Shown in pieces: positions 1-29,937 of a stretch of DNA of 41,047 bases. Within the stretch, counting starts at the first letter, position 1, and the number at the start of each line of letters is the position of its first letter. Origin of the DNA: an uncultured Ruminococcus sp. (GTDB taxonomy: Bacteria > Bacillota > Clostridia > Oscillospirales > Acutalibacteraceae); contig CADBHB010000013.1 in assembly GCA_902794395.1 (NCBI GenBank), forward strand, positions 1 to 41,047. Direction: 5' to 3'. A program made the position numbers and the translations under genes. The notes beneath the pieces were generated by a model that saw only the letters and a program-made list of their open reading frames with translations, did no database searches and was not told where the DNA came from.

Positions 1-111
1 GCTATGGTTACAGGGACGATGACTTTTTCTTCACATTGATTCGTTATCTCTCTATTCCTTCTGTTCGTTCGCTATCCCACAATAATCCGTGAAGAACCTC
101 TTTTTTTGCCG

Positions 112-151
112 CAAAAAGCAACATTTATTCTCCCGACAAAAAGCAACATTT
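112..151. repeat. Pair of 15-bp direct repeats
   Basis: CAAAAAGCAACATTT occurs at 112-126 and again at 137-151, 25 bp apart. No gene is visible in 1-205. The repeats lie just upstream of the broken start of a truncated surface-protein gene, so they may be the end of an element that removed its 5' part. Short multiple repeats occur at the ends of some insertion sequences, but no transposase or inverted partner is visible here. Confidence 0.35.
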
Positions 152-205
152 TTTCCCCGAAACTATTGAATTATCTTCCGAAATATAGTAAAACAAATCA
201 TAATT

Positions 206-595
206 ATGTATTGGCAGAAAGCGAGGCGTGGGGTACATAATACAATGCCCGTAGGCGTGACCTTTACCGGCGCGACAGTATCGCTGAAATCTCAAACATC
301 CCTCTCACTGTATTTTGAGAGCGACCAAAAGATCGAACTGACTTGTGACGGTTACACGAAAGAAACGAAGCACAGCGGTAAAGAGTTTGTCATCCGTATC
401 CGAAACATCGCCGTATACAATTTGAATAAACCTATTACTGTTAAAGTGAACGGCGAGGACGCGGTTACCTACAGTCCGCTGACATATTGCTATAAGGCGC
501 AGACGACAGACAACGCAAAGCTCGTCAATACAGTTAAGGCGTTATACAATTATTATCTTGCCGCGAAAGAGTATTTTGGCGAAAGAGTATTTTGA
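206..595 (+). pseudogene. 3' remnant of a secreted surface protein (C-terminal module only)
   Basis: This 129-codon frame matches the last ~110 residues of the two full-length proteins at 901-4263 and 6881-9310. Shared blocks include SLKSQT, YVIRIRNI-type FVIRIRNIAVYNL, KPITVKVNGEDAV, YSPLTYCYKAQT and KLVNTVKALYNYYLAAK. Homology begins only around codon 13. There is no signal peptide, no good ribosome binding site and no upstream coding frame, so the 5' nine-tenths of the gene appears lost. The last codons carry a small duplication of the GAAAGAGTATTTT stretch, which gives an extra tail. The peptide gene that normally follows this module is intact 18 bp downstream. The N-terminal dozen residues are probably not native. 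Confidence 0.75.
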
Positions 596-613: not shown

Positions 614-733
614 ATGGATAAAGAATTATACGAACGCGCCGAGCTCGAGATAATCAAATTCCAAACCGAGGACATCATCACAACAAGCGGCAATATCCCC
701 TATGAGGATGACGAAACCTCGCGTATAAAATAA
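614..733 (+). CDS. Conserved 39-aa peptide, copy 1
   Basis: ATG at 614 follows a strong GGAGGTG ribosome binding site and ends with TAA at 731-733. The peptide is very acidic. Residues 10-20 read ELEIIKFQTED and residues 27-38 read NIPYEDDETSRI. It lacks a signal peptide, a membrane segment and cysteine. Two close relatives lie at 4278-4394 and 9310-9429, each right behind the same C-terminal module. Against copy 3, codons 10-39 show by eye 11 synonymous and only 2 conservative amino-acid changes, which indicates a selected coding sequence. The function is unknown. A secreted-protein accessory, a signalling or modified peptide precursor, or a folding partner of the upstream protein are all possible. 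This copy stayed intact although its partner gene is truncated. Confidence 0.85.
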   Translation: MDKELYERAELEIIKFQTEDIITTSGNIPYEDDETSRIK

Positions 734-744
734 CACTTTAACAA

Positions 745-783
745 CGGCAGAAGAGAAGCAAAAACGTTTTTCTTCTGCCGTTT
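745..783 (+). terminator. Hairpin terminator after peptide copy 1
   Basis: The stem CGGCAGAAGA pairs with TCTTCTGCCG, with further A/T pairing towards the loop, and is followed by a short T run. Its sequence closely resembles the hairpins at 9916-9959 and 13324-13364. Confidence 0.7.
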
Positions 784-832
784 GCCATTCCTTTTAAGAT
801 AAAAAAACCGATTGTAAAATGTTTAAAAAATC

Positions 833-861
833 TTGAAGTCTTTTCTTGTTTCTGTTATACT
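833..861 (+). promoter_or_regulatory. Sigma-A type promoter for the 901 gene
   Basis: TTGAAG at 833-838 and TATACT at 856-861 are separated by 17 bp. The start codon lies 39 bp downstream of the -10 box. Transcription would start just before the GGAGG ribosome binding site region. Confidence 0.65.
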
Positions 862-900
862 TAAAATGTATATTTATATGCAGATGAAGGAGGAAACACT

Positions 901-3900
901 ATGAAAAGTAAATTTTTCAAACGGCTGACGGCGTGTGCTGTCGCGCTCATTACCACGGCTGCAATGCTGCCGCTGTGTGCTGTTGCAAGCTCAGCGCAGA
1001 ATCCCGAAGTGAACTACACGAAGTACTACCCGGATATTAAAGAGGGCTCGTATTTTACGATAACTCATACGTCAAATAATTATACCGTTGTCACAAAGGA
1101 TCTGATGACCAACAGCTCCGGCGGTACAGGCAAGGGCCTCACGAGCGGAACCTATGTCGTAAATTCAAACACCACGATAGACGAGCGCGTGAATATCGTA
1201 AAGGGCGCTGAGGTCAATCTGATCATTCAGCCGAATGTGACGCTTACCTGCAACAAGGGCATCGGCTGCGGCTACAACAAGAAGGGCGAGTACGCGACGC
1301 TGAATATCTGCGGCAGCGGAAAGCTTGTTGCAACGGGTACCAAGAACACCGCAGGCATCGGCGGCAATGACGATGAAACCAGCGGAAATATCTTGATCCA
1401 CGGCTGCAGGGTCGAAGCGACGGGCGGCAAGCATGGCGCGGGCATCGGCGGCGGCGAGGGCGGCAAGGATCCCGATGATGCAACCTCAATCGAAATCTTT
1501 GCCGGCGATATCACAGCAAAGGGCGGTGTTGACGGCGCAGGTATCGGCGGCGGCGACAATCAGCAGGGCGCGCTCACTTATATCTACGGCGGCAAGATTA
1601 CTGCGAGCAGTGAAAAGCACGGCGCGGGCATCGGCGGCGGCGATGAGGAAAATACTCGCGGCATCTATATCTACAATGGTAATATCACCGCGACAGGCGG
1701 CAGTCACGGTGCGGGCATCGGTGCTGGTGAACACGGCGGTAATATCCATAAAATAAAAATCACGGGCGGCAGTATCAATACCACCGGCGGCAGCGGCGGC
1801 GCGGGCATCGGCGGCGGCTTTGACGAGGATATGAGCGGAGAAATAAATATCAGCGGTGACGTGAAGCTCACGGCTAAGGCAGGCGAAGGTGCAGCGGGCA
1901 TCGGCGCAGGTGCGGGAGCCGATTGGTATCCTGATGGCGATATGTGCGGAACCATCAACATCGACGCAGGAGCCAACAGCGATATTAAAGTATACGCTCT
2001 TAATACGGAAATATTTGAACATGGTGATACTTGGACGTCCTATACATACGATGAGGATCAAATAGACTTCAGCGGAGCCGGTATCGGTGCCGGCTATGGC
2101 GGCAATATGGAAGGCAAGGTATATATCACAGGCGGCAACATGGAAATCTGGAGCGGCGTCGGCGGCGCGGGCATCGGCGGCGGTCGTGAGAATTTTAAGA
2201 CAGGCGGTGAAGGCGGCGATGTTTATATCGGCGGCGGAAATATAAAAATTCGCACGGTAACTTATAGTTATGGCGGTAGTAACGCAAAAGACCAAAAAAG
2301 CTATAACAGCGCGATAGGCTGCGGTCATTACGACAGCAAGGATGGCTCGGTCTATATCCATCCGAACAATAATAAGACGGGCAAGTATATGAAAGTCGTT
2401 CATACTCATCTCGGTGAATATATGGATGATGATTTTGAATCGACAGTAACGGCGAATGCGTCCGACCGCGCCAAAAAATGTCACACAACAGCATGGCTTG
2501 AGATCAGCGAATGTAATCATAGAGACCATGACGGCAACAGCGGACTTTCTTATACCATTGAGGGTGATAAGCACCGCGTAAAGTGCAAATACTGCGGCTA
2601 TGACGCTTTAGAAAACCATGACGGCAGTATTCCCTGCGGCGATTGCGGCTACAGAGACGGTGTTACTTATTACAGCGTAACTCTTAATACGCAGTTCGGC
2701 GACCCTGTACAGCTTGATACGACGTTTCAGTACGTTGCCTCGGGCAAGAAATTTACATTCCCCGAATGTGACAAGGTTCCGGTTGGCAAGCGTTTTATCG
2801 GATGGCGTTTGGTCAATGACACCAACCTGAGACAGCCGGGTGAATCCTTCACGCCGGGCTCAAATAGAACATATGACGCTGTATACGCTGATCTATACAG
2901 CATTACGATCGATCATCAAATCCCGAATGATAACTGGATCTCATTAAATAAAACAGCTGCTGACGAGGACGACGAGATCATCGTTACGGCGCACCCCTAC
3001 GGCGGCTACAGAATGAAAACCGTAACCGTCAGGGAAAACAACGAAAACGGCGAGATAATCAAAGAGATAGGCTGCGAACCCGGAAAGAACACCTGCAGCT
3101 TCAAAATGCCGGCGAAAAACATCTATATTACGGCGGAATTTGAAGAGGCAGGATATGTCGTCGGCATAAGCGACACGGAAAACGGAACGGTGACCGCCGA
3201 CCCGCCGAGCATTGCTTATACTGCATTTGATAACGGCGCCACTCCGAATGTTACGCTGACAGCGACGCCCGACGAGGGATATCATCTGTCCAAGCTTATC
3301 TGCAAAACAGAAAGCGGCACCGTGATCGAGACGACGCAGACCGCAAACGCCAACGGATATACCTTTGCAATGCCTCAGGAAAATGTTGAGGTATCGGCAG
3401 AGTTTGAAAAAGATTCAATTTTCACCGGTCATACCCTGACGCTCAACGGCGACATCGGTGTGAATTTCTATTTGAATTTGACAGCGGAGCAGGCAGCAAA
3501 TACTACCGTCAGCTTCACATGGATGAAGGACGGCAATGAAAAGACCGCTTCGGCGGATATGAGCCAAGCCCCGCTTACCGGCCACGGCTATATGGCGACC
3601 TGCCATGTGGCGGCTTCCGAAATGCGCACGGAAATCACCGCGACCGTTACCATTGACAGCGAGCTTGTTGAGGAAACAAATACATATTCCGTCGCGCAGT
3701 ACGCGGACGTTATACTGACAGACAGTAAATTCGCCGCAGATTATGTTGCCTATGAGGACGGCAGGGGCAATAACGGTCAGCAAAAACTGATACAGCTGCA
3801 AACACTTGTGGAAGAAATGCTTGTTTACGGCGATAACGCCAAGGTTTATTTCAACAAAAACGTCGAGGCTCTGGATGATGCACCGACAGCAGAGATCCCC

Positions 3901-4263
3901 GAAAAAGGCTCCGATATAACGGGCTTGCCCGAAGGCGTATTGTTTGACGGCGCCAGCCTGTCTCTCAAATCGCAGACGACCCTTTCACTCTTCTTTAAGA
4001 GCGAAAGTGGAATGACCCTTACCTGTGCGGGAAAAGAGGTCGTTACCGACAGAAGCGGCAACGAATATGTCATCCGCATCCGCAATATCCCCGCCTACGA
4101 GCTTGACCAGCCCATCACGGTAACGGTGAATGGCACGGGAACAGTTGCCTACAGCCCGCTGACCTATTGCTATAAGGCGCAGACTTCCAGCGACGCAAAG
4201 CTCGTCAACACCGTCAAGGCATTGTACAATTATTACCTTGCGGCGAAAGCATATTTTGATTGA
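901..4263 (+). CDS. Secreted GAGIGGG-repeat beta-helix protein with conserved C-terminal module
   Basis: This 1120-aa exported protein starts at ATG 901 behind AGGAGG. A signal peptide covers residues 1-33 and ends near ASSAQ. Residues ~145-430 hold about nine glycine-rich turns built on GAGIGGG, spaced about 30 residues apart and consistent with a right-handed beta-helix. A cysteine pair region at ~561-583 (CKYCG, then CGDCG) looks like a small zinc ribbon. InlB-like and bacterial-repeat beta modules follow at ~594-836, with a repeated FKMPA/FAMPQ ending. Residues ~838-1120 are the module shared with the 206-595 remnant and the 6881 protein. No enzyme motif was seen, and no LPXTG or dockerin. 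A surface or matrix role is inferred. A 38-aa peptide gene follows after 14 bp with its own ribosome binding site, so the two are probably co-transcribed. Confidence 0.85.
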   Translation: MKSKFFKRLTACAVALITTAAMLPLCAVASSAQNPEVNYTKYYPDIKEGSYFTITHTSNNYTVVTKDLMTNSSGGTGKGLTSGTYVVNSNTTIDERVNIVKGAEVNLIIQPNVTLTCNKGIGCGYNKKGEYATLNICGSGKLVATGTKNTAGIGGNDDETSGNILIHGCRVEATGGKHGAGIGGGEGGKDPDDATSIEIFAGDITAKGGVDGAGIGGGDNQQGALTYIYGGKITASSEKHGAGIGGGDEENTRGIYIYNGNITATGGSHGAGIGAGEHGGNIHKIKITGGSINTTGGSGGAGIGGGFDEDMSGEINISGDVKLTAKAGEGAAGIGAGAGADWYPDGDMCGTINIDAGANSDIKVYALNTEIFEHGDTWTSYTYDEDQIDFSGAGIGAGYGGNMEGKVYITGGNMEIWSGVGGAGIGGGRENFKTGGEGGDVYIGGGNIKIRTVTYSYGGSNAKDQKSYNSAIGCGHYDSKDGSVYIHPNNNKTGKYMKVVHTHLGEYMDDDFESTVTANASDRAKKCHTTAWLEISECNHRDHDGNSGLSYTIEGDKHRVKCKYCGYDALENHDGSIPCGDCGYRDGVTYYSVTLNTQFGDPVQLDTTFQYVASGKKFTFPECDKVPVGKRFIGWRLVNDTNLRQPGESFTPGSNRTYDAVYADLYSITIDHQIPNDNWISLNKTAADEDDEIIVTAHPYGGYRMKTVTVRENNENGEIIKEIGCEPGKNTCSFKMPAKNIYITAEFEEAGYVVGISDTENGTVTADPPSIAYTAFDNGATPNVTLTATPDEGYHLSKLICKTESGTVIETTQTANANGYTFAMPQENVEVSAEFEKDSIFTGHTLTLNGDIGVNFYLNLTAEQAANTTVSFTWMKDGNEKTASADMSQAPLTGHGYMATCHVAASEMRTEITATVTIDSELVEETNTYSVAQYADVILTDSKFAADYVAYEDGRGNNGQQKLIQLQTLVEEMLVYGDNAKVYFNKNVEALDDAPTAEIPEKGSDITGLPEGVLFDGASLSLKSQTTLSLFFKSESGMTLTCAGKEVVTDRSGNEYVIRIRNIPAYELDQPITVTVNGTGTVAYSPLTYCYKAQTSSDAKLVNTVKALYNYYLAAKAYFD

Positions 4264-4277
4264 TCGGAGGTGCTTTT

Positions 4278-4394
4278 ATGAATAAAGAATCATATGAACG
4301 TACCGACCTCGAGATAATCAAATTTCAAACCGAGGACGTAATCACGACAAGCGTCATCCCCTATGAGGATGACGAAACCTCGCGTATACCATAA
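4278..4394 (+). CDS. Conserved 38-aa peptide, copy 2
   Basis: ATG at 4278 sits behind CGGAGGTG, 14 bp after the stop of the surface-protein gene. The TAA is at 4392-4394. The core LEIIKFQTEDVITTS is the same as in the other copies and the end reads IPYEDDETSRIP. Compared with copies 1 and 3 it has V in place of GN at residue 26, a one-codon deletion, so it is 38 residues long. The reading frame and all acidic positions are kept. The function is unknown. Position and spacing suggest it is made together with the upstream secreted protein. Confidence 0.85.
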   Translation: MNKESYERTDLEIIKFQTEDVITTSVIPYEDDETSRIP

Positions 4395-4485
4395 AGAACA
4401 AAGGGGCTTCTAACATAAGGAGCTTCTGACATGGAGCGTACATTTTTTATAATAAGTTTTGCATTATTTATTCTGGAAGTGACTT

Positions 4486-5427
4486 ATGAAAATATTAATC
4501 AAAATAAGCGAAATCATCGGCAAATACATGGCGTTGATTGTGTTGGCGGTGGCGGCGCTCGCTCTGTTTGTGCCGCAATCCTCGCTGTGGATACAAACCT
4601 CTTGGGTGAATTATTTGTTAATGATCGTGATGTTCGGCATGGGATTGACCATGAAGCCCAAGGATTTTGCCCTGATTTTCAAAAGGCCGAAGGATATCCT
4701 GATCGGCTGCGCGGCTCAGTTTATTATTATGCCTGCGCTCGCGTTCGGCTTGAGCAAGCTGTTTGGTCTTGATGTGGCGCTGACCGCGGGAGTAGTGCTT
4801 GTCGGCACCTGTCCGGGCGGCACGGCGAGCAACGTGATCACCTATCTGTCAAAGGGCGACGTCGCGCTGTCCGTGGGAATGACGAGCGTCAATACCCTGC
4901 TTGCGCCGCTTCTCACGCCCGCGATTACCTATCTGCTCCTGCAAACGACCGTCAGCGTTGACGTTTGGGCGATGTTTTGGAGCATTATTCAGGTTATCAT
5001 CATTCCGATCGCGCTCGGCTTTATCATCAATCATTTCTTCGGAAAATTTACTGAGAAGGCGGTCGGCGTGCTCCCAATGGTTTCTACCGTTGCGATTTGC
5101 CTGATCGTTGCCGCCGTTGTTTCACACAATGCCGAAAAAATTTATACCTGCGGCGCGTTGGTGCTGTGTGTTGTGATCCTTCACAATCTGCTCGGTTACG
5201 CCTGCGGCTTCGGACTTGCTAAGCTGCTGAGACTGCCTCCCGCAAAAACCAAGGCGCTCTCCATTGAGATCGGTATGCAGAATTCCGGTCTTGCCACAAG
5301 TCTCGCGGGAACCGCGTTCCCGAATCTTGCCATGGCGACCGTACCGGGCGCGATCTTTTCTGTTTGGCACAACATTTCGGGCGCGATATTATCGGGCTTT
5401 TACAGAAGATGGAAAAACGAAAAATGA
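4486..5427 (+). CDS. Bile acid:sodium symporter family (BASS) transporter
   Basis: This 313-aa integral membrane protein has about nine to ten hydrophobic segments, the usual size for bacterial BASS proteins. Family signatures are visible: GTCPGGTASNVI at residues 107-118, followed by LSKGDVALSVGMTSVNTLLA with the conserved Ser/Asn/Pro pattern of the crossover helices, and SIEIGMQNSGLATSLA near residue 270. Members use a sodium gradient to import organic anions. The substrate can be bile acids, pantothenate, pyruvate or sulfonated compounds and cannot be told from sequence alone. ATG 4486 has only a weak GGAAG ribosome binding site. No terminator separates it from peptide copy 2, so read-through is possible. 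A strong bidirectional hairpin ends it downstream. Confidence 0.85.
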   Translation: MKILIKISEIIGKYMALIVLAVAALALFVPQSSLWIQTSWVNYLLMIVMFGMGLTMKPKDFALIFKRPKDILIGCAAQFIIMPALAFGLSKLFGLDVALTAGVVLVGTCPGGTASNVITYLSKGDVALSVGMTSVNTLLAPLLTPAITYLLLQTTVSVDVWAMFWSIIQVIIIPIALGFIINHFFGKFTEKAVGVLPMVSTVAICLIVAAVVSHNAEKIYTCGALVLCVVILHNLLGYACGFGLAKLLRLPPAKTKALSIEIGMQNSGLATSLAGTAFPNLAMATVPGAIFSVWHNISGAILSGFYRRWKNEK

Positions 5428-5491
5428 GTAACATGATTATAATAACGGCACCTCATATAATTTGCTGTCGCTTATAAGTAAGGCAAAAAAA

Positions 5492-5539
5492 TGCCAAAAC
5501 CCCGAAGATATACGGATGTATATCTTCGGGGTTTTGGCA
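5492..5539. terminator. Bidirectional terminator between convergent genes
   Basis: A perfect 22-bp stem with the 4-nt loop GGAT spans 5492-5539. The arms carry AAAACCCCGAAG and its complement, so each strand ends in GGGGTTTT. It lies between the BASS transporter (plus) and the PAP2 phosphatase (minus). Confidence 0.9.
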
Positions 5540-5602
5540 AAATCCTCTATCAATATTAGGCAACACAACGCCTTTCTTTGATGGTTGATTATTTGAGTGT
5601 GA

Positions 5603-6550
5603 TTATTCCTTTTCAGTGCACGCTTTTCTGATGACAAGCGGCCACGCGATGATCGCAAAGAGTACCATTATGAACATTGCAATGAAATTGCCCCAGTGAC
5701 TGCCAAGCAGCGAAACGATCGTAGCCGGAGCAAAGAGCTCTTTCCACGCAAGCATTAAAGCAAAGCCGACGCACGCTAGGATCGGGAGATTTGACGAACC
5801 TGACGGGATCTCATAGCGGATAAAATACCTGTCGACAAAGCTGCCTATCAAGAAGGCGAGCAAACCGCCGCAGCCCTTAAAGCAGTCGTTCATCATCTTC
5901 TTAGGATCGACCAGCAGCTTTCCTTCCTCATTATAGTCCATCGGATAAGGTTTCAGCGTGATGTACAGAATCGTTGCGACAATCGCCAATATACCGATGA
6001 CCGTCAGGATGTTTTGCACCTTTTCTTTGCCTTCGATCTTCTTTGATACGATACCGATGACGGTGACCAGTACCAGACCTTCCGTGATACCCACGATAAC
6101 ATCCTGCGGCGTATGCACTCCGAGGAAATTGCGCGAAAAGCCGGTCAGCAGAATCAATACGATACACACAACGGAAATCCATCTTCGCCTGTTCCACTGC
6201 CATGCGGCGGTATTGCCGTAATGGAGCGCTGACACAACCGAATGACCGCTGGGGAACGAATAGCCTGTGGCAGCGGTTTTGGAATCGCCGGCGGGTTCGA
6301 TCTCAGCCGAACGAATCCACGGACGGTACGCACAGACAGACAGCTTGATAATGCCGTTTACCACTTCGCCGATCCAAGTTGCGGCGATAAAGCGGTAGCC
6401 CCACTTTTTGTCGACGCACCAAAAAATGATGTACGGGAGAAACGGCAGGATGTCAACGGCAAACTTTGACAACGCATTAAAGAACTCGTCAAAGAAGCCT
6501 CCCGTCGCTTCTCTGATACCTTGCAGAAACAATAAGTATTGAATATCCAA
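5603..6550 (-). CDS. PAP2-family membrane phosphatase
   Basis: This 315-aa polytopic membrane protein carries the three phosphatidic acid phosphatase motifs in order: K-x6-RP (KLSVCAYRP), PSGHS, and SR-x5-H-x3-D (SRNFLGVHTPQDV). The family removes phosphate from lipid phosphates such as undecaprenyl pyrophosphate, phosphatidate or phosphatidylglycerol phosphate, with the active site outside. About eight to nine membrane segments are visible and a longer C-terminal half follows the catalytic core. I chose the TTG at 6550 as start because AAAGGAGG lies 7 nt upstream. The ATG at 6589 is essentially at the predicted transcription start and has no ribosome binding site. The exact lipid substrate cannot be inferred. 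Confidence 0.88.
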   Translation of the reverse strand: MDIQYLLFLQGIREATGGFFDEFFNALSKFAVDILPFLPYIIFWCVDKKWGYRFIAATWIGEVVNGIIKLSVCAYRPWIRSAEIEPAGDSKTAATGYSFPSGHSVVSALHYGNTAAWQWNRRRWISVVCIVLILLTGFSRNFLGVHTPQDVIVGITEGLVLVTVIGIVSKKIEGKEKVQNILTVIGILAIVATILYITLKPYPMDYNEEGKLLVDPKKMMNDCFKGCGGLLAFLIGSFVDRYFIRYEIPSGSSNLPILACVGFALMLAWKELFAPATIVSLLGSHWGNFIAMFIMVLFAIIAWPLVIRKACTEKE

Positions 6551-6596
6551 ATTCAAACCTCCTTTTTTATGATGTTGTAATGTTTCCATCGTTATT

Positions 6597-6625
6597 ATTA
6601 TAATCCCAATGAAGCATCAGTTCAA
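6597..6625 (-). promoter_or_regulatory. Promoter of the PAP2 phosphatase gene
   Basis: On the minus strand, TTGAAC (6625-6620) and TATAAT (6602-6597) are 17 bp apart. The predicted start near 6590 supports the downstream TTG start codon at 6550. Confidence 0.7.
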
Positions 6626-6725
6626 GACAAAGACTCTGAGTATTATACAAAAATTTCAAAGTATTCAAGGCGTTCTCAATCATTTTGAATTTTCCATAAC
6701 TAATTATTTCGATTTGAAAGATAGT

Positions 6726-6777
6726 GAAGGGTGAGGCTTGCACGCTGCAAGCAGGATAGTCCTGCGTTTTACCCTTC
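6726..6777. other. Compact structured element (possible three-way junction)
   Basis: An outer stem GAAGGGT (6726-6732) / ACCCTTC (6771-6777) encloses two small hairpins. The first pairs GCTTGC with GCAAGC, and the second pairs AGGA with TCCT. The element lies about 100 bp upstream of the surface-protein gene at 6881 and is followed by an AT-rich stretch. It could be a leader structure, a terminator-like element or a chance fold. No known riboswitch class was recognised. Confidence 0.3.
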
Positions 6778-6880
6778 CTTGATATATTCGGTATTCAATA
6801 AAAATTTATATAGAGTAAAATGATTGGATTGCTGCGGATTCGCGCCAATGCGATCACAATCAAAAAAGGAGGAAATTTTT

Positions 6881-9310
6881 ATGCGAAAACTCAGGAAACC
6901 ATTGAGCGTCCTGCTGTCGCTTGTGATGGTACTCGGCGTGTTTGCCATTGTGCCGTTCACGGTCAGCGCGCAGGCTGCAGTCACCTACACCGAGTACAGT
7001 TGGAACGGTTCGGCTCTGCAAACGACCGAAAAAACCGTTACGGATTATACTGTGGTTACAAAAGACATTATAAAGAACTCACCTGATAACGGCAGCGGTC
7101 TAAAGACCGGTACGTATCTGGTAAATTCAGACACAACGGTAGATGATTATTTTTACATCAGAAAAAACCAGACCGTGAATCTGATTGTAAAGCCGGGCGT
7201 AACACTGACCTGTAAAAAGGGTATCGGCGGCGGAGAGGAGAGCGATAGCGGCAAATACGGCGGCGAAGGCGGAGATGTTTACATCGGCGGCGGCAATATC
7301 ACTATCTATACGATAAATACTGAGTGGTACAATGAGGAAAAGAATCATGCTATCGGAAGCGGATTTGAAGACATCAAAGACGGTTCCGTTTATATCCACG
7401 CAAACAACAATACGACCGGAAAGTATATGCGCGTTGACTATACGCCCCTTAACAAAGACGATTTCAGGACAGCATCGGCATCCCAGCGTTCAAAGAAAAC
7501 TCACACCAGATGTACGCTGCATATACAGGAATGCAACCATAAGGACTATTACGGCAAGGACGGACTGACTAAAAAGATAACCCCCTCGCAGCACATTATA
7601 ACGTGCAAATACTGCGGGTATACAGACAAAGGAGCTCATGAATCTGAAACGTACTGTTTCTGCGGCTACAATTCCGAAAATTGCTGTACGGTAACGCTCC
7701 GTGATACTGTGGGCAGCGAACAGTTTAAGGTTATAAAAGGCGGCGAGTTTATTCTTCCCGATTACAACGGCGCTGTGTCTCAAACCACTGAAATCCCCGA
7801 GCAATATTACAGAGTGTCGGGCTGGACGCTGGACGGCGACACCTCCGGCAAGATCTATGAACAGGGCGAAGCGGTGACCGCAAACAGTGATATGACATTC
7901 ACTACACAAAGGGAGGCTTTGTATAAGCTCAACTTTGAGAATGTGCAGCACGGCAGCATTCATGCAGACATCACAAACAACGAGGCTTATGCTGCTTCCG
8001 GTGAAACGCTTGCGTTCGGTGTTGATGCCGAGCCGGGATACAGCGTGAGCAAGGTCACCTATAAGATGATGACGGGGTATGGCTTAGATGATAGTTATAA
8101 TGTAGTATATCAATATTCCGAGCCCGTCGAAATACAGCCTGTTGACGGTAGGTATCAGCTGACGATGCCCGAATTAACGTCCGGCAACAATATGATCGTT
8201 ATCTCGGCGGAAGTTAACAAGAACACAGAAAACCCGATAGGTATTTCCGAGGACATCGAGAACGGAACCGTTACATCCGATAAGGAAACGGCGGAGCCGA
8301 ACGAGACCGTCACGCTTACTGTAAAGCCTGACGAAGGCTGCTTCCTTGATGAGCTTCGCTGCAAAGCTGCTGACGGCACGGAGCTCGAACTGACTCAGAC
8401 CGACGATACGCATTACACCTTTACCATGCCCGCTTATCCCGTATCGGTGACCGCCGCATTTTCCGAGAATTTCGGAACGCATCTCGCGGGTCATTCGATC
8501 AGTCTCGACGGCGACATCGCGGTCAACTTCTATATGCATCTTGATCCCGAGATCGCTTCTCACGAGGGCGTTGTGATGCAGTTCCGCGTTCCCGATACAA
8601 GCACAGAATATCAGTATCAGAAGGTTGCGGTCAGCGATAACATCAAGGACGGCGAATACTATGTATTCAAGTGCCGCGTAGCTGCGAAAAATATGGATTC
8701 CGTAATTTCGGCGCAGCTTGTCGACAATGACAACAACAAGAGCATTATCTACACCTATTCTGTCAAGGAATACGCGGAATATCTGCTTGGTCACACGGAC
8801 GATAATGCGGAATACGCAAAAGCGGCTCCGCTTGTTCAGACAATGCTCACCTACGGCGACAACGCGAATTATTACTTCGGCGGCGAAACAGAACCTGCTC
8901 AAATCAACACGGAAATACCGGAATATACTTTCACCGTTGCACCGTTTGCCGAAAGCATCTTTGACGGCGCGACCCTTTCGCTCAAATCTCAGACCACGCT
9001 TTCACTTTGTTTCAAAAGCAATGAAACTATCACGCTTTCAATAGACGAAAAAACTGAGGGCAAGGATTACTTTACCGCTTACAGCGGAAGTGAATACGTT
9101 ATCCGTATCCGCAACATCGCCGTATACGATTTGGACAAGCCTATTACCGTAAAAGTAAACGGCGAGGACGCTGTGACCTACAGCCCGCTGACCTACTGCT
9201 ATAAGGCACAGACTTCCAGCGACGCAAAGCTCGTCAACACCGTCAAGGCACTTTATCTGTATTGGGTTGAGGCATCTCAATACTTCAATCAAAATCAGGG
9301 AGGTAACTGA
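6881..9310 (+). CDS. Secreted surface protein, short paralogue with the conserved C-terminal module
   Basis: This 809-aa exported protein uses ATG 6881, chosen because AAAGGAGG lies just upstream and a clean signal peptide (MRKLRKPLSVLLSLVMVLG to VSAQA) begins there. An upstream in-frame ATG at 6824 lacks these. It parallels the 901 protein: TDYTVVTKD opening, a GTYLVNSDTTV strand block, one GGEGGDVYIGGGNI block, a DGSVYIHANNN block, a cysteine pair region near residue 240 (CKYCG, then CFCG), two beta modules at ~330-530 and the C-terminal module at ~534-809. It lacks the run of GAGIGGG turns, so one paralogue gained or the other lost about 250 residues. The stop codon overlaps the start of the following peptide gene (TGATG), which suggests coupled translation. 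Confidence 0.85.
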   Translation: MRKLRKPLSVLLSLVMVLGVFAIVPFTVSAQAAVTYTEYSWNGSALQTTEKTVTDYTVVTKDIIKNSPDNGSGLKTGTYLVNSDTTVDDYFYIRKNQTVNLIVKPGVTLTCKKGIGGGEESDSGKYGGEGGDVYIGGGNITIYTINTEWYNEEKNHAIGSGFEDIKDGSVYIHANNNTTGKYMRVDYTPLNKDDFRTASASQRSKKTHTRCTLHIQECNHKDYYGKDGLTKKITPSQHIITCKYCGYTDKGAHESETYCFCGYNSENCCTVTLRDTVGSEQFKVIKGGEFILPDYNGAVSQTTEIPEQYYRVSGWTLDGDTSGKIYEQGEAVTANSDMTFTTQREALYKLNFENVQHGSIHADITNNEAYAASGETLAFGVDAEPGYSVSKVTYKMMTGYGLDDSYNVVYQYSEPVEIQPVDGRYQLTMPELTSGNNMIVISAEVNKNTENPIGISEDIENGTVTSDKETAEPNETVTLTVKPDEGCFLDELRCKAADGTELELTQTDDTHYTFTMPAYPVSVTAAFSENFGTHLAGHSISLDGDIAVNFYMHLDPEIASHEGVVMQFRVPDTSTEYQYQKVAVSDNIKDGEYYVFKCRVAAKNMDSVISAQLVDNDNNKSIIYTYSVKEYAEYLLGHTDDNAEYAKAAPLVQTMLTYGDNANYYFGGETEPAQINTEIPEYTFTVAPFAESIFDGATLSLKSQTTLSLCFKSNETITLSIDEKTEGKDYFTAYSGSEYVIRIRNIAVYDLDKPITVKVNGEDAVTYSPLTYCYKAQTSSDAKLVNTVKALYLYWVEASQYFNQNQGGN

Positions 9311-9429
9311 TGGAAAAAGAAAAATACGAGAGCACCGAGCTTGAAATCATCAAATTCCAAACCGAGGATGTCATCTCGACCAGCGGAAACATCCCATATG
9401 AGGATGACGAAACCTCTCGCATCAAATAA
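9310..9429 (+). CDS. Conserved 39-aa peptide, copy 3
   Basis: The ATG at 9310 overlaps the upstream stop codon by one base (TGATG), and GGGAGG lies 7-8 nt upstream. TAA is at 9427-9429. Residues 10-22 read ELEIIKFQTEDVI and the tail reads NIPYEDDETSRIK. It differs from copy 1 mostly at third codon positions. The overlap makes translational coupling to the secreted protein likely, so the pair is probably made in fixed ratio. No export signal is present. The function is unknown. Confidence 0.87.
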   Translation: MEKEKYESTELEIIKFQTEDVISTSGNIPYEDDETSRIK

Positions 9430-9489: not shown

Positions 9490-9852
9490 TTGATAATTAA
9501 AATAAATTTGATTTTACCTCTTTTTGTTATTGTTCTGATGTTGATGATCATATTCGTAACATCAACCGGCTTTTTCGCTGCTGAAACAGGCTTCAAGCGC
9601 GGTGACGCTAATAATGACGGTTTTGTATCGATCAGCGACGCTACGACAATTCAAAGAAAGCTTGCGGATTTTTCTACGGATATCAACTTAAAGGCGGCAG
9701 ATGTAGACGGCAATGGACTTGATATCACTGACGCGACAAATATCCAGCGATATTTGGCTGAATTCAATGATCCGTACCATATCGGAGAATATGTCATCGA
9801 CAACACAGAGCCTACTCGCGACGAATATGAATTGCCTTTTATTCCATATTAA
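9490..9852 (+). CDS. Small membrane-anchored type I dockerin protein
   Basis: This 120-aa protein starts at TTG 9490 behind GGGAG. Residues ~3-28 form one hydrophobic segment, an uncleaved anchor or signal peptide. Residues ~37-93 are a complete type I dockerin with two calcium-loop repeats: GDANNDGFVSISDATTIQRK, then ADVDGNGLDITDATNIQRYL. The rest is a short acidic tail of about 25 residues. Type I dockerins bind cohesin modules of scaffoldins with calcium. A dockerin with almost nothing attached is unusual, since these normally sit at the end of enzymes or large surface proteins. It lies 60 bp behind peptide copy 3 and ahead of a terminator, so it may belong to the same transcript. No cohesin is encoded in the window. 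Confidence 0.8.
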   Translation: MIIKINLILPLFVIVLMLMIIFVTSTGFFAAETGFKRGDANNDGFVSISDATTIQRKLADFSTDINLKAADVDGNGLDITDATNIQRYLAEFNDPYHIGEYVIDNTEPTRDEYELPFIPY

Positions 9853-10446: not shown

Positions 10447-10454
10447 TTTTTGTA

Positions 10455-10714
10455 AAACTGAGATAGAGAAAGTATTGTCTTGTGAACTATACAGAGAGAC
10501 GCCGCCAAAGGCTGAAAGCGGTGTTTAGGGATAAGACAAGAAGACCCCTCTGGAGTTGCAACACCAGAAAGTAAGTGTTGTCGTGTTCGCACGTTATAGC
10601 GAGGAATGAGCGGTGCACAAGCTGAATTAATAGTATCAGGTGCACAAACAAGGTGGAACCGTGGAGCTTTTAACCCCACCCTTGATTTTATGTCAGGGGC
10701 GGGGTATGTTTTTT
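10455..10714 (+). promoter_or_regulatory. T-box riboswitch leader of thrS
   Basis: The leader reads uncharged threonyl-tRNA to control transcription of thrS. The conserved T-box sequence AGGTGGAACCGTG lies at 10651-10663. A long Stem I region precedes it, and a candidate ACC specifier (threonine codon) is at 10563-10565, followed by AGAAAGTAAG as is usual on the 3' side of Stem I. A terminator stem follows: CCCCACCCTTGA (10674-10685) pairs with TCAGGGGCGGGG, one mismatch and one G-T, before a T tract at 10709-10714. Binding of uncharged tRNA would favour the antiterminator. The specifier was assigned by position and could shift by a base or two. Confidence 0.88.
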
Positions 10715-10751: not shown

Positions 10752-12500
10752 ATGGCAGAAAAAGAATTTTCTTTCGAGAATGAGGCTTATCGAAAGACTT
10801 ATTGGCACACTTGCTCTCACATTATGGCACAGGCTATCAAAAGACTGTACCCGGAGGTCAAGCTTGCCATAGGTCCGGCTATTGACAACGGGTTTTACTA
10901 TGACGTATTAGCTCCTTTTGGTTTTAATCCGGAAATCATGGAAAAAATCGAGGCGGAGATGCGTAAAATCTGCAAGGAAAAGCTCAAGTTAGAGCGGTTT
11001 GAACTTCCGCGTGAAGACGCATTGGAACTAATGAAGGATGAGCCTTTCAAGGTGGAGCTTATTAATGATCTACCCGAAGATGCTGCTATCTCTTTTTATA
11101 AGCAGGGAGAGTTTATCGACTTGTGTGCCGGTCCGCACCTTGATTCTACAGGCCGTGTAAAGGGGAATGCTATAAAGCTGCTCTCTTGCGCATCGGCATA
11201 TTGGCGCGGAGATTCTAATCGCGAGTCGCTGCAGCGTATCTATGGTATTGCTTATCCTAAGAAAGAACAGCTGGATGAGTATATTGCTCGTATCGAAGAA
11301 GCAAAAAAGAGAGATCATCGTAAGCTGGGCAAGGATTTGGGATTATATCTCTTGATGGAAGAGGGTCCCGGTTTCCCGTTCTTCTTACCTAAAGGTATGG
11401 TGCTGAAAAATACACTGATCGAATATTGGAGAGAGGTTCACAAAAGATTCGGATATGTTGAGATCTCAACTCCGATGATGCTTAATCGTGCCTTGTGGGA
11501 ACGCTCGGGTCACTGGCAGCACTATAAAGACAATATGTACACAACCGTTATCGATGAGACAGATTTCGCGATCAAACCCATGAACTGTCCCGGCGGAATG
11601 TTGGTATATCGTTCCGAGCCGCACTCGTACAAGGAGCTGCCTTTACGTGTCGGTGAGTTGGGTCTGGTTCACCGCCATGAACTCTCGGGAGCGCTTCACG
11701 GTTTATTCCGAGTAAGGTGTTTCACACAGGATGACGCCCACATTTTTATGACATGGGATCAGATGCGCGATGAGATCAAGAAGGTCATCGAGCTTTTTGA
11801 TGAGGTTTATTCCGTGTTTGGTCTGAGTTATGAGATCGAAGTTTCTACTATGCCGGAAGATCATATGGGTGAAGTTGAAGTGTGGGATTTTGCTACCGAC
11901 ACTTTAAAAGCCGCATGTGAGGATATGGGCAAAAAGTATACCATCAACGAGGGAGACGGAGCTTTCTACGGACCTAAGTTGGACTTTCATCTGGCGGATT
12001 CTTTAGGACGTACTTGGCAGTGCGGAACGATTCAGCTTGATATGCAGCTGCCGGAGAGATTTGAATTGGAATATACCGGTGCCGACGGAGAAAAACATCG
12101 TCCTGCCATGATCCATCGAGTTGTATTTGGCTCTATAGAGAGATTCATCGGAGTTATCACCGAGCATTTTGCGGGTGCGTTTCCGCTTTGGATCGCGCCG
12201 CAGCAGGTCATCGTACTTCCTGTAACTGACAGAGCCGGTGATTATGCAGATCTGATAGCTAAAAGGCTGAACGATTCGGGATTCAGGGTCGAAGTTGATC
12301 ATCGTTCCGAAAAACTGGGTTATAAAATCAGAGAAGCTCAGGGTATGAAAATTCCTTATATGGTTGTTGTCGGCGATAAAGACATTGAGAATAATACTGT
12401 TTCTATTCGTCATCGTTCAGGTGTTGACCTCGGCGCGATGTCTTATGAAGATTTTGAAGCTCTGTTAATTGAAGAGCAAAGCACAAAGTCGATCAAGTAA
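10752..12500 (+). CDS. thrS: Threonyl-tRNA synthetase lacking the TGS domain
   Basis: This class II synthetase joins threonine to tRNA-Thr in the cytoplasm. Its 582 aa are about 60 short of the usual bacterial enzyme, because the N-terminal TGS domain is absent and the protein opens directly in the editing domain. Editing residues are visible: H19-x3-H23 (HTCSH) and the CAGPH motif near residue 125. The catalytic core has motif 2 FRVRCFTQDDAHIF (~318-331) and motif 3 GSIERFIGVITEHF (~460-473). The anticodon-binding domain starts after PLWIAPQQ (~480). ATG 10752 follows TTTTGGAGGAATG, so the short N-terminus is not a mis-called start. The T-box leader supports the threonine identity. It may be a second, stress-type ThrS rather than the only copy. 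Confidence 0.95.
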   Translation: MAEKEFSFENEAYRKTYWHTCSHIMAQAIKRLYPEVKLAIGPAIDNGFYYDVLAPFGFNPEIMEKIEAEMRKICKEKLKLERFELPREDALELMKDEPFKVELINDLPEDAAISFYKQGEFIDLCAGPHLDSTGRVKGNAIKLLSCASAYWRGDSNRESLQRIYGIAYPKKEQLDEYIARIEEAKKRDHRKLGKDLGLYLLMEEGPGFPFFLPKGMVLKNTLIEYWREVHKRFGYVEISTPMMLNRALWERSGHWQHYKDNMYTTVIDETDFAIKPMNCPGGMLVYRSEPHSYKELPLRVGELGLVHRHELSGALHGLFRVRCFTQDDAHIFMTWDQMRDEIKKVIELFDEVYSVFGLSYEIEVSTMPEDHMGEVEVWDFATDTLKAACEDMGKKYTINEGDGAFYGPKLDFHLADSLGRTWQCGTIQLDMQLPERFELEYTGADGEKHRPAMIHRVVFGSIERFIGVITEHFAGAFPLWIAPQQVIVLPVTDRAGDYADLIAKRLNDSGFRVEVDHRSEKLGYKIREAQGMKIPYMVVVGDKDIENNTVSIRHRSGVDLGAMSYEDFEALLIEEQSTKSIK

Positions 12501-16787: not shown

Positions 16788-16816
16788 TTGAAAAAATTTG
16801 TGTTTTTGGGTATAAA
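16788..16816 (+). promoter_or_regulatory. Promoter of the dockerin surface operon
   Basis: TTGAAA (16788-16793) and TATAAA (16811-16816) are 17 bp apart, 7 bp downstream of the LytTR repeat. An AAAGGAG ribosome binding site and ATG 16851 follow. Confidence 0.75.
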
Positions 16817-16850
16817 TAGAATGGATAATCATAAACAAAGGAGTGTTATT

Positions 16851-19800
16851 ATGGTCAAACGAATATCCAAAAGACTGTGCGCGGTGCTTTTGTCGCTGTG
16901 CGTTATCGTTTCCATGGTGACTGTCGGCGTGGTTTCCGGCTCTGCCGCCGAAACGGACAGCGCGGCAGTCGGCAACGCCATCGCGGAACAGGCTGTGGAA
17001 CAGATGATCGACGACGGTTTGCGCGCGATCTGCATGGGCATGGATGCCGTGGGCGAGGCTACCGGCAACGGCGACGTGCAGAAGGTCTTTTCCGTAATAG
17101 AGGAATGGGCTTTTATGAGCACCGAGGAGATCGCGATAGAGGAGCTAAAGGAGTTGTGCGAGGAGATCCTCAACGAGATCAACGAGCTTGAAACTCAGAT
17201 TGCCTCCGACGATGCCTACATCACCTCCATGCTAGCAGATAAGAATCTCTCCGACGCCAAGACAAATCTGAACAACGCGTGGCAGTCGGACGTTAAGAAC
17301 TATCTCACGGATTCAGGCGTTGTCAATACGCTTTCCGCATACAAATATTATCTCAACGACGCGGTCAACGGCGCGTCCGAGGACGTGCTGCGCGAAGACC
17401 TTAACTACCTGATAAAGCAGTACGCGCTTATGTCCTCCTCATCGATCGACACAAGCAGCTACTCGGTTGAAAACCTCAAAAAAGTGATGTTTGAAACCAA
17501 CGACATCAACAAAAGCTTCATCACGCTGATTTCAAATCTCGCGGCGGCGCTCAGCCCGCACGGCACGGCTAACACGACCTGCGCTGAGTACGCGGCGCAG
17601 GTGGCGTATATGGCTTACCCGTTCAGCCATCAGCAGTATGCGTATGTCCATGAGATCATGGAGGAGCAGCTAATGACTATCATGCTGGTCGAGATGGCGT
17701 ACAACGAATACCTCTATCAGCAGGGCAAATATCTCAGCGAGACCTATCACGACGAGGACAAACCCGACGGCTGGTACGCGGGCTACCTCGGCTATCAGCA
17801 GGATTTTTACGATGAGATGAACCGCGGTTCCGACTGCGTCAACTCAAGGATCGAAAGAATGCTCAGCGCAAAAATGAACGCCGACGGCAACGGTTTTGTC
17901 ATGCTGTCCCTTTCCGACTACATGAAGCCCGAGGACGCCGTGACCACCACGCTGCGCATCAACGGCTACACAAGTTCCGTAGACGTGCTGCGCGACTGGG
18001 CTGACAAGTGCGACGGCGATTACGATTATAAGCTGGACGCTACTAACGAAGACGGCACCCATATTTCGCATGCAAAATACATCGGTCAGAATGTCAAATT
18101 CAAAAAGGTTATGACCCATTCGGCCGAGGGCAGCAAGGTCTATTATATCCTCGACCCCGAACAGTTCGACAGCAGTGAGGCGCTGTATGTCAAGAACCTC
18201 GACCACAAAATCGTGTTTCACGGCTTGGGCAGCGACACCCACACGGAGTCCTGCGACTATCTGAACCTTTGCCGCGAGATGACCGACGGCGCGAACACCT
18301 TTATCGGCATCACCGACGAAAACTGCACGGGCTTCAGCGAGCTGCTGACCACAAACTACTTCTCTATCCGAGATTCCAAAATTGAAAACTACCTTAGCGG
18401 TTCGGGTAAATACCTTCCCGACGCGCAGACCAATCCCAACAGCAGCGGCGGTGCTCCGCACAACTATGTACTTTCCTCAAACTACAGCTTAGAGTACAAT
18501 ATGTTCGACACCAATTACGCCAAGATCAAGCTTTTGGACTGCGAACGCCAGTTCCCGGACTGCAAGCCGGTCGCGGACTATGAGATGGATATGAAGCACG
18601 GTCAAAACTCTACCGACGAGTGCTACACCGTATTCCTGTGCAACAAGAGCAACGTGTTCTCGCAAATAGCGCACGCCGAGGTCTCCGACCCCGCCGCAGG
18701 CGATATAAAGATCACCGACGACGACGTGCATTTCTACGGCAACGGCGAGAGCACCATGGTCGCTGCGGGCAAGGAGATCACGGTCAAAATGAAGTCAAGC
18801 GGCGGCAAAATGACCGCGCTGAAAATGATCCGCAACGCCGACTCGGTTTCCGGCACGGCACAGAACACAGAGGAGCTGCTGCTTGATGAGTCGCAGCTTG
18901 CAGGCTTCACTCCCGACGCGGATGGTTATATCACGGCGCATTTTACCATGCCGTATTCCGACGTGACCTACCGCCTGGAGGTCGACGGCACCTTTGCTCA
19001 TGCCACTATCTCATCCAATGAAGGCGGCACTGCGACATTTAAGGACGGCAGCACCGAGCAGTACTGCAAAATAGGCGAAAAGGCTGTCGTTTACGTTTCT
19101 CCCGACAGCGGCTATGCCCTGCACAGCATTTATTTGGAGGACAAAAACGGCAATATGCTTTCCGACCCCGTTACTATCGATCTCTCCGAAAAGAGAACAG
19201 ACGGCGAGGACGCCTACAGCTTCACCATGCCGTCTCAGAGCGTGACGGTCAAGGCGTATTTCACAACGGGCAACACGGTCAGCTTTGACACCGATGCTTT
19301 CAGGTTCGATGAAAACGGCGACAGGCTTATCTATCTTAGCTTCATCGACGACCCCGACGCGACCTCGCGCGTATTTGCGCCCGGATTCCCCGTCAGCTTC
19401 AAGGCGGTCTGTGACCCGAGCTATGCCGACAACCTCGCGGTGACCGCGCGCGGTGTTACAAGCGGTAAGCTATACGAGCTGAGAAATGAAAACGATGTAT
19501 ATTCCTTTGATTCGGAAACCGAGGATGTTATCGTCGGCATGTCCTACGAGCCGCACACCTATGTCAACGGCTTCTGCACCGAATGTGGGATGTACCAAAA
19601 GCCCGTTCTTGCCGATAACGGGTATTATCAGATAGAAAACGGCGGAAACCTGTTCTGGATCTCCGCGCTGACAAGGGACGATCACACCCACGCGGCATTT
19701 GATAGCCGTGATACCGCTCCTAAATTCGAGCTGGTCAACGACATCGACCTGGAAAGCAGACAGTGGGAGCCGATAGCGTCCTTTGTAACCGGAAATGAAT

Positions 19801-29830: not shown

Positions 29831-29937
29831 AATTATAATAATATGTTGGTTTTTTATATAAGAAAAAGCCGTAACGCAGTGTTCACGGCTTGCAGACCGA
29901 TATTAAAAAGCATTTTTTCGGACTTCGGAGGTGCGAT

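Follow-up and report, generated by a model that had tools for sequence, protein, structure and literature searches.

Putative LPP-like RiPP precursors dispersed behind surface-protein genes in an uncultured Ruminococcus

The closest described system to the one reported here is that of the linear polyphosphorylated peptides (LPPs), whose lpp cluster (LppA, LppK, LppB, LppS, LppD, and LppN) was reported by Popov et al. in 2026 (PMC13381572). In the passages of that paper drawn on here, multiple phosphates are carried on Ser3, cleavage by LppS is aided by LppB, and the leader mutation P-13A weakened binding. LPPs are known from Bacillota, and their biological role is given as unknown; the paper describes capsule loci in Bacilli, and its 126 peptidases, "predominantly from Bacillota", may include Clostridia. 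In this study, we analyzed three short genes in a 41,047-nucleotide stretch of DNA from an uncultured Ruminococcus sp. (contig CADBHB010000013.1 of assembly GCA_902794395.1; hereafter the window), which encode peptides of 38-39 amino acids (aa) and lie close behind surface-protein genes. These peptides are quite probably precursors of an LPP-like system of ribosomally synthesized and post-translationally modified peptides (RiPPs), matured in trans in the case of the window, and most likely represent a dispersed, surface-protein-coupled branch of such precursors. We infer the modification, the maturation in trans, the product, and its function from sequence. Two features are apparently new: the dispersal of the precursors behind surface-protein genes, and an ELPxxP-like tail common to some peptides and neighboring lipoproteins. 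No prior report of this arrangement was found in open-licence PubMed Central text.

Peptide family and its leader-like layout

Copies 1 (614..733, 39 aa), 2 (4278..4394, 38 aa), and 3 (9310..9429, 39 aa) lie on the plus strand as open frames running from ATG to TAA. Each ATG is preceded at 6-7 bases by GGAGG (602-606 and 4266-4270) or GGGAGG (9298-9303), in agreement with the strong ribosome binding sites described in a first-pass annotation of this DNA. That annotation took the family to consist of three copies, but a profile search detected 12 in the window's genome. It also counted 11 silent changes and two replacements between copies 1 and 3 in codons 10-39. The two replacements stood, whereas our recount gave 12 synonymous changes, with a Nei-Gojobori omega (dN/dS) of 0.018. 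For the whole gene, there were 13 synonymous and seven non-synonymous changes (omega 0.067), and omega ranged from 0.053 to 0.316 across the six pairs formed by the three window copies and the copy on contig C6. None of these values is near 1, and the window peptides are under purifying selection, as had been claimed. Short open reading frames (ORFs) lying so close behind the stop codons of surface-protein genes might be non-functional or merely regulatory. This explanation is scarcely credible, as omega was 0.053-0.316, the leader is kept across genera and families, and the peptides are linked to enzymes.

Relatives were collected by scanning named genomes with the pattern [FI][DQ]xEDVITT, which makes E, D, V, I, T, and T a product of the selection; of 160 confirmed stretches, the 80 best were retained. 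The resulting 78 loci yielded 93 peptide ORFs, mostly from Ruminococcus and other Clostridia, many of them from ruminants, with R. flavefaciens isolates included. The loci are not independent, since several share a genome or contig (e.g., L067/L092, L090/L137, and L098/L102) or come from strains of one species, and the contigs of L065 and of L034, a family-sample match, are equal in length. ORFs were defined by length, without a gene finder, and signal peptides were recognized by eye or with a crude rule. The peptide was also present in 16 of 120 genomes sampled from the same family and in three of 398 genomes across the phylum, the window's own genome being counted in both, and therefore either the peptide family or the profile is narrow. 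The expectation of relatives in other gut Clostridia was thus borne out.

The family alignment (A2) held 29 of the 38 matches from the family-sample search, nine having been dropped by hand (two with an internal stop, five further copies from genome G087, one copy from G066, and the C3 copy of the window's own genome). The N-terminal part of the peptides is conserved, with the consensus MKExYExPExEIxxFxxEDVITTSG. Layout and position were scored on 104 ORFs (93 from the loci and 11 of the 12 own-genome copies), 102 of them distinct. The pattern D-[VIAY]-[ILVN]-x-x-S was matched by 101 of the 102 distinct peptides; Tyr lay 14 residues before this Asp in 100 of the 101, and Pro stood at Y+3 in 65. 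The tail after the Ser spanned 4-42 residues and carried a net negative charge in 96 of 101. The Ser in this test is circular, because the pattern requires it, but an independent count is given by the residue following EDVITT, which is absent from the search pattern and was Ser in 90 of 90 cases. This constant Ser, which is S25 in each window copy, is the likely phosphorylation site. The conserved N-terminus and variable tail suggest a RiPP precursor made up of leader and core. The peptides had no Pfam match over the cut-off (DUF3673 at 0.083 for copy 1), no NCBIfam match, and no PHROGs match, and phage records searched with copy 3 only gave no match.

Enzyme cassettes near the peptides

A PqqD-type RiPP recognition element (RRE) was found in 19 of the 78 loci, at a distance of 28-5551 bp from a peptide, with both on one strand in 17. 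These 19 loci also held NTP_transf_5 (16), an S24 domain representing a SipW-like peptidase (14), an HprK-like kinase (13), and an ATP-binding cassette (ABC) exporter (9). The exporter was found in 10 of the 78 loci, nine of them with PqqD, and kinase, RRE, peptidase, and nucleoside triphosphate (NTP) transferase occurred together in 10 loci. At the density of the window's own genome (5 in 2.2 Mb), about 2.6 PqqD matches would be expected in the 1.14 Mb of the loci; 20 ORFs were observed. Representatives of the cassette were checked with Pfam and NCBIfam, and ABC_membrane and ABC_tran were detected in L066 and L071. The operon order in L065, L071, L077, L116, and L139 was peptide, a small lipoprotein or other small gene in some cases, kinase, RRE, peptidase, with or without exporter, and NTP transferase. 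Related arrangements were seen in two other families: in L151, the module is followed by peptide, ELPFVP-tailed lipoprotein, and kinase, and in L150, a large ORF is followed by peptide, kinase, RRE, and peptidase. S24 and NTP_transf_5 were fused in some loci.

The peptidase kept Ser, His, and the Asp of GDN in 14 of 14 loci in an alignment read by eye, with a Ser-His spacing of 39 in L065 and 38-51 in four others measured. Its best NCBIfam match was sigpep_I_arch, below the cut-off, and the L065 peptidase had no solved relative at E <= 1. The kinase gave only two weak, unrelated matches against solved structures.

The window's genome contained five PqqD matches over the cut-off, five NTP_transf_5 matches, and three HprK-like kinases. 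The peptides on C7 and C21 adjoin an RRE and a fused S24-NTP_transf_5 protein, and C8 carries kinase, RRE, S24, and NTP_transf_5, with no peptide detected beside them. In the family sample, PqqD was present in 16 of 16 peptide-bearing genomes compared with 50 of 104 others (E <= 1e-5; Fisher 3e-5), and NTP_transf_5 in 16 of 16 compared with 39 of 104 (E <= 1e-5; Fisher 1e-6), although the genomes are related and the trials not independent. From coordinates that we read ourselves, a peptide lay within about 4 kb of PqqD or NTP_transf_5 in seven of the 16 genomes and not in the other nine. An RRE of this type was found in seven of eight genomes reached through the loci. Among five R. flavefaciens genomes, four had the RRE, which adjoined the kinase in 4/4 and was accompanied by the peptidase in 3/4.

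According to the mechanism that we propose, the RRE would bind the Y-x-x-P/T-x-L leader, the HprK-like kinase would phosphorylate the constant Ser, the SipW-like peptidase would cleave near or just before TTS, and the ABC exporter would secrete a linear phosphorylated tail. Since no PqqD-type RRE or cassette was found in the window itself, maturation would occur in trans, and the C7, C21, and C8 cassettes of the same genome may serve the three window peptides.

Two loci with other enzymes were observed. On the minus strand of C21 (L030, 6105-7979), PqqD is followed by a radical S-adenosylmethionine (SAM) gene in two frames, by frameshift or sequencing error, and then by a peptide whose leader is of the same type and whose tail contains two Cys. 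At L070 (2940-5937), inside a peptide cassette, NTP_transf_5 and a TupA-like ATP-grasp domain share one ORF, and a second TupA-like gene adjoins. The peptides might accordingly share a general RRE leader while the enzymes that modify their tails differ from locus to locus, phosphorylation being one option. The radical SAM gene of C21 (Pfam 8.7e-14), standing before a two-Cys tail, and the ATP-grasp domains of L070 fit this explanation, which we regard as rather unlikely: a CxxxCxxC motif scan, made in place of a profile search, brought only one clear radical SAM pairing to notice, the kinase is present in 13 of the 19 PqqD loci, and the Ser is constant.

Surface-protein genes and shared tails

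The upstream stop codons lie 18, 14, and -1 bases from the ATG of copies 1, 2, and 3, the third sharing one base with the TGA before it, which matches the earlier description of genes 0-18 bp behind module genes with the third overlapping by one base. The gene before copy 1 (206..595, plus strand) is 5'-truncated at the contig start, with the C-terminal module reduced to its second half (match from 245 by tblastn; profile positions 162-290), while the peptide itself is open, as the first-pass annotation had it. Copy 2 follows an 1120-aa surface protein (901..4263, plus strand) with InlB-type repeats and the module at 3400-4260, and copy 3 an 809-aa surface protein (6881..9310, plus strand) with the module at 8450-9289; both have signal-peptide-like starts by eye. 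Behind copy 3 lies a small type I dockerin protein (9490..9852, plus strand; dockerin 3.6e-9) of the ELPxxP-tailed kind, ending in ELPFIPY. Contig C46 of the same genome carries a lone first half-module (profile positions 11-156) adjoining a hydrolase-like gene. The half-modules on C46 and in window 1-595 are split near the boundary between the two repeats, and rearrangement or mis-assembly is possible.

Ten of the 12 own-genome copies lie behind the module (the three window copies, C6, C34, C12, C7, C21:23527, C3, and C20). The remaining two depart from the claim that the peptide always follows it: the C36 copy is preceded by a small dockerin protein and C21:12134 by a PqqD and radical SAM pair. 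In the reverse direction, which is the only test of the link not begun from the peptide, 10 of 11 module matches in the genome were followed by a peptide, and the sole match without one was the C46 half-module. Nearly every gene of one kind of surface protein in this genome is thus trailed by a peptide gene. In the wider set, two of the 104 peptides lay at edges; an ORF of 100 aa or more on the same strand ended between -20 and 250 bp upstream of 89 of the 102 non-edge peptides, compared with 9.2% of random points, and a same-strand upstream ORF lay within 60 bp for 69 of 102, compared with 2.7%. For 81 of the 93 locus peptides, an ORF ended between -60 and 150 bp upstream; the module was found on 46 of these and was undetected on 35, so that the link to the module in other genomes held in part, although the module profile was built on seven sequences of the window's genome and distant modules may escape it. 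At L112 (9891, plus strand), a degenerate-looking relative of the peptide without the DVITTS end is flanked by a module gene and a complete peptide.

The module is a tandem repeat of a domain of about 110 aa, whose halves are homologous (hhalign probability 97). It has no Pfam name and no PDB match at E <= 0.001. Its AlphaFold model was a confident one (pLDDT 89), and the structure matches listed for it, mostly antibody chains with TM about 0.2, were given no weight. The annotation had proposed that the peptide is a functional partner or signal tied to this module. In its partner form, the peptide would be an unmodified small protein (chaperone, anchor, or subunit), co-translated with the module and binding to it. 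The 10 of 11 module matches followed by a peptide agree with this. Of 55 ORFs with the module in the 78 loci, 47 are likewise followed by one, a count biased because the loci were chosen by the peptide. Nevertheless, a partner of the module is improbable: no module was detectable on 35 of the 81 ORFs ending close upstream, some peptides are preceded by a lipoprotein, a radical SAM gene, or a small dockerin protein, it is the leader-like part rather than the variable tail that is conserved, and peptides are linked to RRE cassettes. The tie to the module stood, the proposal built on it was too narrow, and the peptide is better read as a RiPP precursor, whose product may still have a signalling role. 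For such a precursor, translational coupling to the surface-protein gene directly before it would synchronize the making of peptide and surface protein.

A small secreted protein ending in an ELPFIP-like or WSPLVP-like sequence was encoded no more than 1.5 kb from a peptide in 17 of the 78 loci, and in nearly every case it was a lipoprotein (lipobox-like start, by eye). Among ORFs of 90-420 aa, such ends were found on 17 of 170 in the vicinity of peptides compared with four of 1678 elsewhere, by a pattern written after examples had been seen in the same loci; the four were in L104, L120, and L130, which are PqqD loci, and in L103. Nine of the 93 peptides bear such a tail themselves, that of L086 by a loosened pattern only. 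Over the last 26 residues of peptide and neighbor tails, we counted the identical residues and, among these, the residues encoded by different codons. The two counts were 11 and 9 in L078, 12 and 9 in L081, and 12 and 8 in L082 (strains of a single species, all three counting as one case), 16 and 8 in L093, 14 and 5 in L105, and 12 and 5 in L072. In L078, L081, L082, and L093, the two tails are almost alike. The likeness was weaker in L172 (8 residues) and L086 (5), and L112, with two tailed peptides, had no tailed neighbor in the DNA covered. In L115 (9590-10132), a lipoprotein and a leader-bearing peptide share one ORF ending in ELPIIPIR. Because the tails are alike and their codons unlike, selection probably acts on the tail at least in L078, L081, L082, and L093, and may keep two different genes ending alike.

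A shared tail could reflect a shared binding partner or processing enzyme, which is a guess. The acidic product might act where the surface protein and the ELPxxP-tailed dockerin protein or lipoprotein are displayed. A larger scheme, which is conceivable but doubtful, would be a genome-wide surface programme in which nearly every protein of one surface class has its own RiPP precursor with shared maturation enzymes, and the ELPxxP or WSPLxP C-terminus of the neighbor is the docking or acceptor site of the product.

Elsewhere in the window, dockerin-like repeats (custom profile) mark two very large proteins encoded at 16788-22277 and 29890-36570, and no peptide was found behind either. A T-box leader (10451-10686; Rfam RF00230, 106 bits) lies 5' of the gene at 10752-12500, which we take to encode threonyl-tRNA synthetase.

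Comparison with known systems

Several observations weigh against precursors of an LPP-like system. PqqD, HprK-like kinase, S24, and NTP_transf_5 were all unseen in the DNA covered for 59 of the 78 loci, and the exporter was not located in the window's genome. R. flavefaciens MA2007, which holds L081, has the peptide and no RRE match at E <= 1e-4. The kinase and peptidase are remote from curated models, with Hpr_kinase_C at 0.0036 and Peptidase_S24 at 0.013 for L065, both below the cut-off, and the peptidase has two conserved Asp residues as candidates for the triad, either of which may match D93 of LppS. Pro is missing from the leader of the window copies (YERA, YERT, and YEST), and some tails have merely 4-7 residues. 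The Tyr-to-Ser spacing is 19 here compared with 18 in LPPs, and the HQ and FET of the LPP leader are absent (consensus as given in the passages of PMC13381572 used here).

The RRE profile found its best solved relatives in the lasso RREs TfuB1 and TbiB1, and its nearest NCBIfam relatives, below the cut-off, were also lasso RREs. Lasso precursors would be cut after T-S to expose Gly1, with a ring closed to D/E at 7-9 (GNIPYEDDE in copies 1 and 3). The YxxP-type leader and Thr at -2 in that register are compatible with this, and 13 of 92 peptides have G1 with D/E at 7-9. However, G follows the Ser in only 33 of 92, copy 2 has V there, Transglut_core3 (B2) had no match in the genome at E <= 10, and blastp of the 78 loci with the three Asn synthases of the window's genome yielded a single 140-aa fragment, in L099. 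These three strong Asn_synthase matches all lie on contigs without a peptide; a short, weak match over the cut-off, C21:7732 (25.4 bits), lies 4.2 kb from the C21:12134 peptide. Lasso peptides, a most improbable identity, were rejected for want of B2, of an intact cyclase beside the precursor, and of a conserved Gly1.

If the peptides are LPP-like precursors, surface proteins may be paired with tailored small peptides, and such precursors would have multiplied in Ruminococcus-type genomes, R. flavefaciens isolates included, in association with surface and dockerin proteins. The tie to particular proteins would offer a first handle on the role of LPP-type peptides and makes the question testable. 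Short precursors without an adjoining enzyme are easily missed by cluster-based mining, and precursor counts for gut Clostridia may be too low.

Among the systems compared, paeninodin-like lasso peptides share the RRE, HprK-like kinase, NTP transferase, and exporter (PMC13381572, in part), and differ in that B2 had no match in the genome, blastp of the 78 loci revealed no intact cyclase gene, and Gly1 is not conserved. The SynChlorMet kinase ScmC (TIGR04249), for which the kinase alone was compared, is the best NCBIfam match of our kinase (3.4e-6), at 26.6 bits against a cut-off of 125. As far as the passages of the LPP paper used here allow (PMC13381572), differences from LPPs are found in the leader, which is ExEIxxFxxEDVITTS here compared with VLxHQxIxFETxxS, with T, L, or A often in place of Pro; in the precursors, which are scattered behind surface-protein genes rather than placed in capsule loci in Bacilli; and in the S24/NTP_transf_5 fusions of some loci and the ELPxxP tails. 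The peptides keep the Tyr and Ser of the full LPP leader consensus, YxxPxVLxHQxIxFETxxS, but not the whole of it, and we therefore call them LPP-like rather than LPPs. Alignment to LPPs by the Ser places the cleavage before TTS, and alignment by the Tyr places it one residue off, leaving the exact site ambiguous. In other respects the two systems agree (PMC13381572, same passages): both have a precursor, an HprK-like kinase, a discrete PqqD-type RRE, a SipW-like peptidase with the L065 Ser-His spacing of 39 equal to that of S29 and H68 in LppS, an MsbA-like ABC exporter, and an NTP transferase, together with a YxxP-type leader, a constant Ser soon after it, a variable C-terminus, and no macrolactam cyclase.

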